Positions 3,550-10,632 of a stretch of DNA of 64,000 nt are shown in pieces. The DNA lies in NCBI GenBank assembly GCA_913030835.1, contig CAJWDP010000004.1:1-64000 (forward strand), written 5' to 3'. How positions within the stretch are numbered: the first letter of the stretch is position 1; each line of letters begins with the position of its first letter. A program made the position numbers and the translations under genes. The DNA is from an uncultured Flavobacteriales bacterium. Its GTDB lineage: Bacteria > Bacteroidota > Bacteroidia > Flavobacteriales_D > Parvicellaceae. Below the pieces are notes generated by a model. It saw only the letters and a program-made list of their open reading frames with translations, ran no database searches and had not been told where the DNA came from.

Positions 3550-3559
3550 ATTTTTGTTG

Positions 3560-5089
3560 ATGATTGGTAGTTTTAAATTAAAGGAATTTCAAAACATTGT
3601 GCTGAGTGAGGGTTCGGTTAATTTGCCGGATCAGGTAATGGAGACTGTACAAAGGGCAAATGAATTTCTAAGGAAGTTTTCAAAGGATAAGGTTATTTAT
3701 GGTATCAATACAGGATTTGGGCCTATGGCTCAATACCGCATCAATGAATCTGATCAGGTCCAGTTGCAATACAATCTCGTAAGGAGTCATGCGCAGGGCA
3801 TGGGGAACTTCCTCAATGAGCATCAAATCAGAGCTGTATTACTAAGTCGACTAAACACGTTGAGTCTTGGTAAGTCAGGGGTAAATCCTGAGGTAATCAA
3901 GCAGATACAAACATTTTTGAACTGTAAAATTCACCCGGCAATTCAAGAGCATGGTGGAGTTGGCGCTAGTGGAGATCTCGTTCAGCTGGCGCAGCTTGCC
4001 CAGGCACTCATTGGTGAGGGTAAAGTGATTTTTGAAGGTGAAATCAGAGCCACCAAGGAAGTGTTGAATGAGCAGAATATATCACCATTACAACTTACGT
4101 TGAGAGATGGGCTAGCTTTGATCAATGGCACCTCTTCGATGACGGGAATTGCTGCCTTAAATGCCTATTATGCAAGAAGACTTGTCGAATGGTCCGTTTT
4201 AACATCAAGCGTACTTAATGAACTGGTTGAAGCATTCGATGATGCATTTTCCAATGAACTCAATGGTGCTAAAAGACATTCCGGTCAGTTTAAAATTGCC
4301 AGTTCAATGCAGGAGGTGCTTCGAACGTCGACTAGAATAAAGGACAGACACAGTCATCCATTCTTAAATTCAATTCCTGAAGAAGAGAAGTTTAATAGAA
4401 AAGTTCAGGAATACTATTCGCTACGTTGTATACCCCAAATAATTGGGCCTGTGCTGGACACACTAATTCATTGTGAAACCATTATCGAGCAAGAAATAAA
4501 CTCTGTAAATGACAATCCAATAGTGGATCTGGAAAAGGAGTCGGTTTATCATGGAGGGAATTTCCATGGGGATTACGTTTCGCTTGAAATGGACAAGCTT
4601 AAAATAGCCGTGATCCGATTATCCATGTTAATTGATCGTCAGTTTAACTTTTTGTTGAATCATCGATTGAATAAGACATTCCCCCCGTTTCTTAATGATA
4701 AGAAGCTTGGGCTAAACTTTGGATTTCAAGGTGCGCAGTATGCTGTTACATCAACTACAGCTGAAAATCAAACATTGGGTTACCCTATGTATTTGCACAG
4801 TATCCCTTGCAACAATGATAACCAGGACATTGTAAGCATGGGTTCTAATTCTGCTCTAATTACAGCAAAAGTTATTGATAATACCTATGAAGTACTATCA
4901 CTGTATATACAAGCCATTTCTCATGCAATGGATCTGGTAAATGAGGAGGATTCGTTTTCGGAGAAGGGAAAGTCGATTCACAACACAATCAAAGAGCTAA
5001 ATGGTAGTTTCGATTCTGATTTACCGATTAATGAAAAAGGAGCAACCTTAATTGATTATCTTAAAAACAACCAACCTATAGAGATATGA
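3560..5089 (+). CDS. Tyrosine (aromatic amino acid) ammonia-lyase of the pigment cluster
   Basis: MIO-dependent lyase that deaminates tyrosine to 4-coumarate, the likely aromatic starter of the polyene. Counting from the ATG at 3560, the catalytic Tyr lies in YGINTGFG (47-54) and the Ala-Ser-Gly triad that cyclises to MIO lies in GGVGASGDL (136-138). NLVRSH sits in the substrate-selectivity loop. These motifs and the overall sequence closely resemble the tyrosine ammonia-lyase of Flavobacterium johnsoniae as I know it, and differ from housekeeping histidine lyases. In-frame TTG codons lie at 3554 and 3557, but the ATG at 3560 is the natural start. It is the first gene of the operon and overlaps the reductase by ATGA. 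Histidine as substrate cannot be fully excluded by reading alone. Confidence 0.88.
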   Translation: MIGSFKLKEFQNIVLSEGSVNLPDQVMETVQRANEFLRKFSKDKVIYGINTGFGPMAQYRINESDQVQLQYNLVRSHAQGMGNFLNEHQIRAVLLSRLNTLSLGKSGVNPEVIKQIQTFLNCKIHPAIQEHGGVGASGDLVQLAQLAQALIGEGKVIFEGEIRATKEVLNEQNISPLQLTLRDGLALINGTSSMTGIAALNAYYARRLVEWSVLTSSVLNELVEAFDDAFSNELNGAKRHSGQFKIASSMQEVLRTSTRIKDRHSHPFLNSIPEEEKFNRKVQEYYSLRCIPQIIGPVLDTLIHCETIIEQEINSVNDNPIVDLEKESVYHGGNFHGDYVSLEMDKLKIAVIRLSMLIDRQFNFLLNHRLNKTFPPFLNDKKLGLNFGFQGAQYAVTSTTAENQTLGYPMYLHSIPCNNDNQDIVSMGSNSALITAKVIDNTYEVLSLYIQAISHAMDLVNEEDSFSEKGKSIHNTIKELNGSFDSDLPINEKGATLIDYLKNNQPIEI

Positions 5090-7269: not shown

Positions 7270-8148
7270 ATGAGCAAATGGACCGGTAAGAGTCGAGGCG
7301 GATTAATAGGTTATTCTTTTTTTGTATACACCCTAAAATGGTTTGGAGTAGGAACCGCGTATGCTTTACTAGAAATTGTATACCCATTTTATTTTTGGTT
7401 TGAGAAGGATAAGAAGGCCAATCTAATTAAGTTTTATCAGGCGGTAGGCCATGATACAGCGACTGCAAAAAAAATTGTTAGAAAGAACTTTAAAGTTTTA
7501 GGCCAGTGTCTCATTGATCGTGTTGCTTTTTTAATTGGCAAGGGGGATGAGTACACATTTTCATTGGATGGGGAAGAAAACTTGCTCGAAATAACCTCAA
7601 TGGGTAAAGGTGGGTTGTTGCTGAGTGCTCATCTGGGAAATTGGGAAATTGCTGGTAATTTGCTAAAAAAAAAGGGCATAAGCAGTAACATAAATGTCTT
7701 GATGTTAGATGCCGAACACAAGAAGATCAAGGACTTTTTAGTCAAACAAACCAATGGGCAGCTATTTAACATTATACCCATAACAGATGATTTTTCTTAT
7801 CTGGTTAATTTGAAAGAAGCGGTAACGAAAAATGAAATGATCTGCTTGCATGGAGATCGTTTTCTCGATGGATCTAAAACGGTTGAAAAAAGTTTCTTTG
7901 GTAAGAGAACCATTTTCCCAACCGGTCCTTTTGAATTAGGCGTAAGACTTAACATACCCGTTTGTATTGTTTACGCAATAAAAACATCAAAACGTCATTA
8001 CGCACTTCAGGCGTCCAAATTAATTGAAAATTCATCCGGTCAAGAGATAAGTGATTTGTATATTTCCAAACTTGAATCGTTAGTTCGACAACATCCCGAG
8101 CAATGGTTTAATTATTATGACTACTTCGAAAAAGATACCGGCAGTTGA
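7270..8148 (+). CDS. Lysophospholipid acyltransferase-family protein (LpxL/HtrB-like)
   Basis: Membrane-associated acyltransferase of 292 residues with one hydrophobic N-terminal segment. SAHLGNWE supplies the HX4E motif (His121, Glu126) typical of the LpxL/LpxM class, and GDRFLDGSK lies near 195. Relatives move an acyl chain from ACP to a lipid acceptor. Here the plausible donor is the polyene-ACP and the acceptor a membrane lipid or resorcinol; both are inference. It starts directly after the ACP stop and overlaps the next gene by 32 bases. Confidence 0.85.
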   Translation: MSKWTGKSRGGLIGYSFFVYTLKWFGVGTAYALLEIVYPFYFWFEKDKKANLIKFYQAVGHDTATAKKIVRKNFKVLGQCLIDRVAFLIGKGDEYTFSLDGEENLLEITSMGKGGLLLSAHLGNWEIAGNLLKKKGISSNINVLMLDAEHKKIKDFLVKQTNGQLFNIIPITDDFSYLVNLKEAVTKNEMICLHGDRFLDGSKTVEKSFFGKRTIFPTGPFELGVRLNIPVCIVYAIKTSKRHYALQASKLIENSSGQEISDLYISKLESLVRQHPEQWFNYYDYFEKDTGS

Positions 8149-8536
8149 TTTGATTCCACAGAAGGAACCATTTGTTTTTGTGGATCACGTGTTTGATTTC
8201 ACAGATAAGATGTTCAAATCAACTTTTGAAGTTCCCGAAAATCATGTATTCGTCGAAGATGGTGAACTTTTAAAGGCAGGGTTTGTGGAAGTAGTTGCGC
8301 AGTCTTTGGCCGCAGGGCTTACATTTTTCAATAAGGACGAATCGCCAAAAATTGGATTTATTGGAGAAGTGAAGGGGTTTAAAATCAATGGAAAAGCCAA
8401 AGTGAAAGATGTGTTGGATGTCGCGGTAGAAGTTCAGAACGAAGTGTTCAATGTGCTCATAATTTCAGGGAAAATTTCAATTCAGGGGAACCTTATTGCG
8501 GAAGGCTTACTTAAATTAGTTATACAAGATCAATAA
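8117..8536 (+). CDS. Hotdog 3-hydroxyacyl-ACP dehydratase, ApeP-like
   Basis: A 139-residue hotdog protein whose N-terminus (LIPQKEPFVFVDHV) follows the FabZ pattern. The second catalytic position is kept as Glu58 in GFVEVVAQ. The GHFP histidine loop of FabZ is missing and replaced by NHVFVEDGE, leaving only an offset His43. The layout is like the ApeP partner of aryl-polyene clusters. It may pair with the other hotdog protein at 14324, which has the opposite defect. The ATG lies 32 bases inside the acyltransferase gene, the longest overlap in the operon. No other in-frame start fits better. Confidence 0.8.
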   Translation: MTTSKKIPAVDLIPQKEPFVFVDHVFDFTDKMFKSTFEVPENHVFVEDGELLKAGFVEVVAQSLAAGLTFFNKDESPKIGFIGEVKGFKINGKAKVKDVLDVAVEVQNEVFNVLIISGKISIQGNLIAEGLLKLVIQDQ

Positions 8537-8948
8537 TTCATATACATTCAGACAGTTCACTAAATTCAGTGAGGCAGACCCAATGGGAGTAGTATGGCAC
8601 GGAACCTACCTGCGTTATTTTGAGGATGGACGGGAAGCATTTGGTCGTGAATACGGAATGGGTTACTTGGAATTTTTTGAAAACGGATTCTTCATCCCAA
8701 TCGTTAAGTCAGAAATTGAACACAAAGGAATGGTGCGGTATGGTGATGAGATTGAAATTACAACAACCATTCTCCCTAATGAAGCTGCGAAAATCATATT
8801 TGAATACCAGATATTTAACGTCACATTGAATACATTGGCTGCAACGGGAAGAACGACGCAAGTATTTATGGACGCGAAAACGAGAGAATTGCACTTGGTT
8901 GTTCCGCAATTTTTCAGTGAATGGCGGGATAAAATCTTTGCGGAGTGA
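8529..8948 (+). CDS. 4-hydroxybenzoyl-CoA-thioesterase-like hotdog protein with probable ATC start
   Basis: The first in-frame ATG, at 8583, falls in the middle of the conserved 4HBT motif. The codons just before it read KFSEADP and run on into MGVVWHG, so the catalytic Asp (8577-8579) would be lost. The frame is open upstream to a TAG at 8517, but contains no ATG, GTG or TTG. The best start is ATC at 8529, which gives 139 residues, the normal family length, and overlaps the upstream stop by eight bases. The enzyme probably hydrolyses or edits acyl thioesters in the polyene pathway, possibly releasing the finished chain. Alternatives are a +1 frameshift from the dehydratase, or a sequence error. 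Confidence 0.8.
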   Translation: MNNSYTFRQFTKFSEADPMGVVWHGTYLRYFEDGREAFGREYGMGYLEFFENGFFIPIVKSEIEHKGMVRYGDEIEITTTILPNEAAKIIFEYQIFNVTLNTLAATGRTTQVFMDAKTRELHLVVPQFFSEWRDKIFAE

Positions 8949-10012
8949 GGGTCTTTATCGGAGCAGAAAATATCATATCCCCCTTGGGCAGCACAGCAGA
9001 AGATTGTTTCACCAATGTGATTGAGGGACGAACAGGGATTAAAGAGTATTGGATTAACAAGGAGAAATACAGCATTTCCAAAATAGATAGAGACAATTAT
9101 TCATTTGATGGTTCATTTTGGCAGTACTTATTAAAGGCTTCAATTGATGAAAGTCTGAAAAAAGTGAATCAGCAGAAAAATCTAATCTATGTAGTCAGCT
9201 CCGCGAAAGGTGAAATCGACAAAATTGATAGATCTATAGAGGAATTTGGATTAAGCTATTCCGTGAAGTCAGTTCTTGGTAATGATGCCAATTTCTATTG
9301 TGTATCAAATGCATGTATTTCGGGTTTGCTTGCAATTAATTTAGCATACGACCTCATCCAATCGGGAAGCGCCAATACGGTTGTTGTTTCAGGAATCGAT
9401 TTGGTCTCAGATTTTGTAATAGCCGGGTTTAAGTCATTATTCGCTTTGGATGAGGATCGATGTAAACCATATGATAAGCAAAGAAAGGGTTTGAACCTGG
9501 GCGAAGCGGTTGGTACTTGTATATTGTCAAATGATATTAGTATTTACAAAGAAGCACCTCTGCAATATTTAGGTGGCTTTTCAAACAACGATGCGAATCA
9601 CATTTCAGGTCCAAGTAGAACGGGAGAGGGGCTCAAGAAGTCGGTGCAACGGGCATTGTCGGTATCTGATCTAAAACCTGATTTCATCAGTGCGCACGGA
9701 ACAGCTACGAACTACAACGATGGAATGGAGGCGCAAGCCTTTCATAGCCTTGGCTTGCATGACATACCAATTAATAGTCTGAAATCGTATTTCGGCCATA
9801 CACTAGGCGCTGCAGGAACGATAGAAACGATCATATCAATGCAGGGGTTGAGGAGAAATATAGCGCCAGGTACATTGGGTTTCCAACGACTCGGAACAGA
9901 GAAGTCAATACGAGTCCATTCTGATTGTATTAAGGGTGATTTCACCTCTTTTTTAAAGACTTGTTCAGGTTTTGGTGGAGGTAATGCAGCCGGAATGATT
10001 AAAAAATTATGA
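8945..10012 (+). CDS. Beta-ketoacyl-ACP synthase, short form, complete triad
   Basis: Ketosynthase of 355 residues, about 50 shorter than FabF mainly in the N-terminal half. The triad is intact: Cys124 in SNACISG, His251 in SAHGTAT and His285 in SYFGHTLGAAG. CSGFGGGN is the C-terminal loop. The GTG start overlaps the thioesterase TGA (GTGA), so coupled translation is likely. It is the second of three complete condensing enzymes and could be specific for starter or early elongation; this cannot be told from sequence. Confidence 0.87.
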   Translation: MRVFIGAENIISPLGSTAEDCFTNVIEGRTGIKEYWINKEKYSISKIDRDNYSFDGSFWQYLLKASIDESLKKVNQQKNLIYVVSSAKGEIDKIDRSIEEFGLSYSVKSVLGNDANFYCVSNACISGLLAINLAYDLIQSGSANTVVVSGIDLVSDFVIAGFKSLFALDEDRCKPYDKQRKGLNLGEAVGTCILSNDISIYKEAPLQYLGGFSNNDANHISGPSRTGEGLKKSVQRALSVSDLKPDFISAHGTATNYNDGMEAQAFHSLGLHDIPINSLKSYFGHTLGAAGTIETIISMQGLRRNIAPGTLGFQRLGTEKSIRVHSDCIKGDFTSFLKTCSGFGGGNAAGMIKKL

Positions 10013-10632
10013 GCCAAGTCGTTATAAATCATGCACTTTACCTTGGGCCCGACCAGCTCTATTGGGACGAAGAGAAGAATCTTGATCTGAGAGGAGCAAC
10101 ACTAACAGAACGCCTGGATTTTATTTATGAAAATCAAATCAAAAGCTATCCAAAATATTACAGGATGGACGGTATGGCAAAGCTGGTTTTTATCCTTGGA
10201 GAACTCATGTGTCAGCGTAGCAATATTTGTAAAGAAACAGAAGGTTCAGAAATTGCATTTGTTATGTTGAATGCGTCGGGCAGTTATCCTTCTGATTCGA
10301 TACACGGTGATTTGATCCGAAAAGGATTTGATCGCTCAAGTCCTGCCAATTTTGTTTATACCTTGCCCAATGTTGGTATGGGTGAGGTATGCATCAAACA
10401 GAAAATTACCGGAGAAGGAATGTTCTTAATCGAGGAAAAATTTTCTGCTACACGTATTTGGGATTTGGCAAATCTATTTTTGACTCAGAGAAAATGCAAG
10501 GCCATACTCATTGGTTGGGCCGAACCTACACAGAATGATGGAAATTGTATATTTTTGATGACCGAACGCGATAGTGGATTAAATCGGTTAAATACTGAAC
10601 AAAACATACTTAAACTTTGTAACAATGAATAG
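10009..10632 (+). CDS. Ketosynthase-fold fragment protein without active-site Cys
   Basis: A 207-residue protein that I recognise only by fold. The segment SPANFVYTLPNVGMGEVC and the following KITGEG resemble the stretch before the nucleophile elbow of the beta-ketoacyl synthase N-terminal (ketoacyl-synt_2) family. Where Cys should follow, it has FLIEEKFS, and no HGTAT or GHTLGA motif is present. It is therefore a non-catalytic half-ketosynthase, perhaps a structural partner or chain-length factor. Its ATGA overlap with the ketosynthase before it and the seven-base overlap with the ACP after it support a role in the same complex. It is not a decaying gene, because the frame is clean and coupled on both sides. 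Confidence 0.7.
   Translation: MSQVVINHALYLGPDQLYWDEEKNLDLRGATLTERLDFIYENQIKSYPKYYRMDGMAKLVFILGELMCQRSNICKETEGSEIAFVMLNASGSYPSDSIHGDLIRKGFDRSSPANFVYTLPNVGMGEVCIKQKITGEGMFLIEEKFSATRIWDLANLFLTQRKCKAILIGWAEPTQNDGNCIFLMTERDSGLNRLNTEQNILKLCNNE

Follow-up and report, generated by a model that had tools for sequence, protein, structure and literature searches.

We found a thioesterase gene with no ATG, GTG or TTG compatible with its conserved protein in a 64,000-nucleotide stretch of DNA (contig CAJWDP010000004.1, referred to below as the window) from an uncultured Flavobacteriales bacterium. The gene lies on the forward strand within a pigment cluster, and its initiation site is very probably position 8529, where the codon is ATC. 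That the frame is a real gene with a functional start at this ATC we hold to be about equally likely to be right or wrong.

A thioesterase frame without a canonical start

The thioesterase frame spans positions 8520 to 8945 (142 open codons) and stops at a TGA (8946-8948). Upstream, it is bounded by an in-frame TAG (8517-8519) and, as the first-pass annotation had stated, no ATG, GTG or TTG is found from there to the ATG at 8583. The extension of the frame above this ATG was also confirmed, although its length is 21 codons and not the "15 or more" given originally. The frame opens with the codons TTA TAC AAG ATC AAT AAT TCA TAT ACA TTC AGA CAG TTC ACT AAA TTC and continues with AGT GAG GCA GAC CCA ATG, the last one being the ATG at 8583. 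AAG at 8526 and ATC at 8529 are the sole codons in frame within 8520-8582 that differ from ATG by a single base. The remaining canonical triplets in 8456-8582 are a TTG at 8496 (in frame, but above the TAG at 8517) and a GTG at 8569 (out of frame). The gene as proposed would start at the ATC (8529-8531) and end at 8948, coding for 139 amino acids followed by the TGA. The ATC stands 16 codons before the GAC (8577-8579) of an invariant Asp (residue 17 counted from the ATC) and, in agreement with the earlier description, overlaps the upstream open reading frame (ORF) by eight bases, the stop of the latter being the TAA at 8534-8536.

The protein is a predicted hotdog thioesterase of the 4HBT/YbgC type. 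In the profile search, it matched PF13279 (4HBT_2) with 72.1 bits (cut-off 25.5, E 7e-20), PF03061 (4HBT) with 32.9 bits (cut-off 20.6), and an acyl-ACP thioesterase profile. The subfamily model TIGR00051 was slightly under its cut-off (64 versus 68.7), and MenI, YbgC/FadM and related models gave matches below their respective cut-offs. The structure predicted from the ATC at 8529 with 45 sequences had a mean pLDDT of 94.8 and showed a hotdog fold with a long central helix when compared with 6fdg, 5kl9 and 1s5u (TM-scores of 0.77-0.90). The top matches among solved structures were 6fdg (a DHNA-CoA thioesterase) and 5kl9 (YbgC), with 1lo9, an entry whose title names the D17N mutant of 4-hydroxybenzoyl-CoA thioesterase, at rank 38. 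A sequence search of the PDB returned distant thioesterases only, 6fdg being the best (E 1.7e-13).

Conservation extends into the part of the frame that precedes the first ATG. F13, E15 and D17 are identical in 100%, 95.3% and 100%, respectively, of the 129 other aligned sequences, and the invariant Asp is the residue that we take to be catalytic. In the same alignment of 130 sequences, 36 columns reach at least 90% identity among the others, and the protein retains 35 of them; the single exception is an N-terminal Leu column, at which it is gapped. Since the ATG at 8583-8585 is residue 19, a start there would delete the conserved Asp, as had been claimed before, together with strand 1 (residues 3-10), which is confidently predicted. 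The sequence above this ATG, which carries F13, E15, D17 and the predicted first strand, is thus coding. Gene finders presume ATG, GTG or TTG as start codons; here they would produce a truncated enzyme without the invariant Asp or miss the gene.

The locus is a putative flexirubin-type cluster that opens with an aromatic lyase scoring above the FlxA cut-off, a FlxA-type tyrosine ammonia-lyase at 3554-5089 (NF053541, 739 bits versus a cut-off of 700). One ketosynthase-like ORF was recognised by profile, and the reductase, ACP and other ketosynthase ORFs were identified from their sequences alone. The ORFs immediately upstream of the thioesterase are an LpxL-type acyltransferase (7270-8148; PF03279, E 7.7e-19) and a dehydratase-like ORF (8117-8536, ending with the TAA at 8534-8536), both on the forward strand. 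The latter has no Pfam match and only weak, sub-cut-off matches to FabZ; a comparison of C-terminal ends showed that it terminates roughly where the ORFs of relatives do. Among the four FlxA matches that pass the cut-off, that of this genome scores lowest, so divergence may extend to the entire cluster. Two other features of these clusters were recorded: a 207-amino-acid ORF within the pigment cluster (10009-10632) that matched no Pfam or NCBIfam profile at E 0.001, and an in-frame TAA within the FlxA lyase match of a genome of the same family (L188, G016:C29:12722-14209).

Start codons among related thioesterases

We read 162 thioesterase loci, in three sets of 89, 44 and 29. The first comprises nine first matches and 80 among the matches listed from 570 relatives. 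The second was taken from 53 matches in the order (399 genomes), 43 of them read by script and one (L184) by eye, the other nine being already among the 89. The third consists of 29 of the 32 matches, besides our own, in a sample of the phylum (392 genomes; G514, G634 and G769 were left out). The collections share some genomes, and there are 158 distinct sequences when cut near the Asp, excluding L044 and L184. The parser was keyed on the Asp motif and failed only on L184, which also has the Asp. L044, whose thioesterase is truncated by the contig end, was excluded from the alignments; only a GTG is found there, eight codons ahead of the Asp, and the locus is uninformative because the contig end cuts the gene.

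Canonical starts are the rule among these loci. A canonical codon is present at least 13 codons above the Asp in 159 of the 162. In the 158 scripted loci that have one at 13-32 codons ahead of the Asp, the codon nearest to a distance of 17 is ATG (117 loci), TTG (25) or GTG (16). A canonical codon stands at precisely the distance of our ATC, 16 codons from the Asp, in seven loci; three of these, L002, L004 and L007, which are the genomes of the same family with a flexirubin-type match, have ATG there. There are only two loci without any ATG, GTG or TTG ahead of the Asp, the gene described here and L032 (from a metagenome-assembled genome, MAG), and no ATC was found in L032 at the position of our start. 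Hence, the ATC is not conserved, and the alignment did not bear out a near-cognate start common to the homologues, since the relatives carry canonical ones.

The phase between the upstream frame and the thioesterase is common to our gene, L002 and L004, while 33 of the 43 scripted loci of the order have a four-base overlap in another phase. However, L002, L004 and L007 are not close orthologues, because in the thioesterase tree (69 rows) our gene is placed apart from L002/L004 and from L007, and identities are about 50%. With a length of 0.65 (median 0.14), the end branch of our gene belongs to the four long ones in this tree. No flexirubin-type thioesterase match was found in G001 and G002, the genomes of the same genus, and therefore no close comparison exists.

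Two loci deserve separate mention. In L032 (5953-6016; a Flavobacteriales MAG with a flexirubin-type thioesterase), an out-of-frame ATG adjoins a short repeat of the TTAA type, which makes an indel or an assembly slip possible there. In L003 (G053:C16), ATAA stands where many relatives have ATGA or GTGA over the upstream stop, leaving ATA at the usual position; this locus still has available an ATG 25 codons before the Asp, plus others 10 and 8 codons before it.

The initiation site and its possible explanations

The sequence context of starts was modeled with a matrix covering positions -21 to +14, leaving out the start codon itself, from 60 confident ATG starts located in the window and in five more stretches of this genome; a limit of 150 codons kept the thioesterase and the dehydratase-like ORF out of the training set. 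Of all 22 codons in this frame from 8520 up to and including 8583, the ATC at 8529 scored highest (3.95), exceeding 98% of internal codons and 85% of the true starts evaluated by leave-one-out, versus -2.36 for the ATG at 8583, which exceeds 13% of true starts. Near 8529, the predicted unpaired probability is 0.660, which exceeds the values of 93% of the true starts (60 sites) and of 98% of the internal sites (214); near 8583 the value is 0.384, and 8% of true starts lie below it. The codons at 8526 and 8532 are almost as open as 8529, and the TTC codons at 8547 and 8556 also have good contexts (2.79 and 3.06, respectively). In Flavobacterium johnsoniae, an A at the first base of the start codon and at -3, -6, -12 and -13 favours initiation (PMC6847099); site 8529 has an A at the first base and at -3, and a T at -6, -12 and -13. 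ATA, ATC, ATT and CTG make up about 9% of codons here, and hence a near-cognate codon at the best place may be due to chance.

Context and folding place a start region, in which a working ATC and a lost ATG look alike. The earlier proposal that translation starts at the ATC is supported as to the site, by its distance to the Asp, its context and its openness. Real use of the codon, which is unshared with relatives and looks the same under a base error or the recent loss of a start, is about as likely as not.

If the ATC is used, the initiator tRNA would pair with it at two of the three codon positions, and the unstructured context would expose the site. Initiation in Bacteroidota proceeds without Shine-Dalgarno pairing. 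Ribosomes terminating at the TAA (8534-8536) of the dehydratase-like frame would expose 8529, so that initiation would be a coupled reinitiation, and the likely consequence would be a low thioesterase output, dependent on upstream translation and sensitive to IF3. We infer all three elements of this scheme, the use of the ATC, the coupling to the dehydratase-like frame and the sensitivity to IF3. Real use of the ATC would represent a near-cognate start outside infC in a phylum without Shine-Dalgarno pairing, and a case for asking whether termination-coupled reinitiation loosens the stringency of start codon selection. A stronger version, in which the AUC is kept by selection and the enzyme is made mainly by ribosomes ending the upstream gene, throttled by IF3, seems to us quite unlikely; if true, it would be an IF3-gated enzyme gene other than infC in Bacteroidota, initiated without Shine-Dalgarno pairing.

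Two explanations account for the same site without a working ATC. In one, rather unlikely but to be kept seriously in view, an ancestral start at 8529 was recently lost by mutation, and the gene, now expressed little or not at all, is turning into a pseudogene in a pathway that can do without it. Relatives possess canonical starts, as this would predict, and an ATG-to-ATC change has been described in a disrupted copy of a Neisseria PAAR gene whose function is unclear (PMC10210955). Gene decay is also conceivable because deletion of the aryl-polyene thioesterase of Escherichia coli is reported to lower pigmentation only partly (PMC8253772) and because the end branch of our gene is long. However, the frame is intact and its conserved columns are retained, and the low score of the FlxA lyase suggests that divergence could affect the whole cluster and not the thioesterase alone. 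In the other explanation, which we consider unlikely, the contig is wrong at one base and the true start is canonical. A single substitution separates ATC from the ATG that L002, L004 and L007 have at this place, and the draft assembly, in 86 contigs, was the only one available for the species. On the other hand, estimated completeness is 99.95% and contamination 0.98%, and besides infC no other ORF known to need a non-canonical start was seen among 123 ORFs in 147 kb of the genome (of the 15 flagged ORFs, homology covered the thioesterase and infC).

The readings that do not involve 8529 as a start fare worse. A shorter thioesterase beginning at the ATG at 8583 has in its favour that this is the first canonical codon in frame, and it is nevertheless very improbable: strand 1 and the invariant Asp would be lost, the context is poor and the flank structured, and nearly all relatives have a canonical codon well above the Asp. 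We rejected it on conserved residues, structure model, context and folding. The main alternative of the first-pass annotation, a +1 shift of ribosomes from the dehydratase-like frame to give a dehydratase-thioesterase fusion, appears exceedingly improbable and was rejected as well. The thioesterase frame is indeed the +1 frame of the upstream one and both overlap, but the shift would be needed after the TAG at 8517, where GTT, ATA, CAA, GAT and CAA would have to re-pair with TTA, TAC, AAG, ATC and AAT, none of them plausibly, leaving no +1 slippery site. Neither survey yielded a fused relative, given that open frames are 141-189 amino acids long in the 53 matches of the order and 138-175 in the 33 of the phylum. 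Two further derivations of the start were discarded. The AAGA at 8526 could be seen as a mutated form of the ATGA overlap found in many relatives, but the phase of the upstream frame does not allow this (the offset is 2 in our gene and 1 in L003 and L006), and an indel shifting an existing ATG into frame fails because there is no ATG in any frame within 8452-8582.

Probable near-cognate starts in this genome and known ones in other systems

We looked at infC in the same order, reading 30 of its 39 matches (our own and 29 others). In 25 of the 30, the open frame contains no ATG, GTG or TTG as far as 10 codons beyond the start of the profile match. Our own infC (L156, G000:C3:10525-11082) has no canonical start and has ATA at its likely start; in the loci of the order (L137-L166) that lack a canonical start, ATA, ATT or ATC is seen at this position. 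As the own copy and 24 of the 29 others lack a canonical start, near-cognate initiation probably exists in this genome and lineage. Within 147 kb of the genome, the first canonical start lies at least 14 codons into the ORF in 15 of the 123 ORFs of at least 100 codons; among these 15, homology covered the thioesterase and infC, in both of which the upstream part is known to be coding.

Thioesterases accompany a tyrosine ammonia-lyase, ketosynthases, a dehydratase and an acyltransferase in described flexirubin and aryl-polyene clusters (PMC3992019, PMC8253772), as they do here. Our gene differs from the thioesterases of such clusters in its start, since 160 of the 162 loci have ATG, GTG or TTG before the Asp. 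No report of this gene starting at ATC was found among the open-licence papers listed, those on AUC/ATC start codons dealing mostly with mitochondria and eukaryotes.

The closest parallel in form is infC, which starts at ATT in E. coli and at ATC in Streptomyces (PMC5472188). Both infC and our thioesterase have a coding frame without ATG, GTG or TTG and an ATH codon at the start; however, the near-cognate start of infC is widespread and serves the autoregulation of IF3, whereas the ATC of the thioesterase is confined to one lineage. The sigR gene of Streptomyces, which starts at GTC and is described as repressed by IF3, is likewise a gene other than infC with a non-canonical start, whose translation is tuned upstream or downstream (PMC5472188). 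In contrast to our ATC, which is not conserved and was identified from sequence, the GTC of sigR is conserved in 32 of 34 Streptomyces and was tested by experiment (PMC5472188). In Bacillus subtilis, expression of a rny-lacZ fusion mutated to AUC is reported to persist at a much lower level (PMC10303841), showing that AUC can initiate weakly in a bacterium. The gene for ribosomal protein L12ae of Staphylothermus marinus also had no valid start, and an ATC was proposed by comparing relatives (PMC2678158); that protein is archaeal and likely essential, and its ATC start is inferred, like ours. Near-cognate starts are thus already known from infC and sigR, and the thioesterase would be at most one more member of this group, outside infC.
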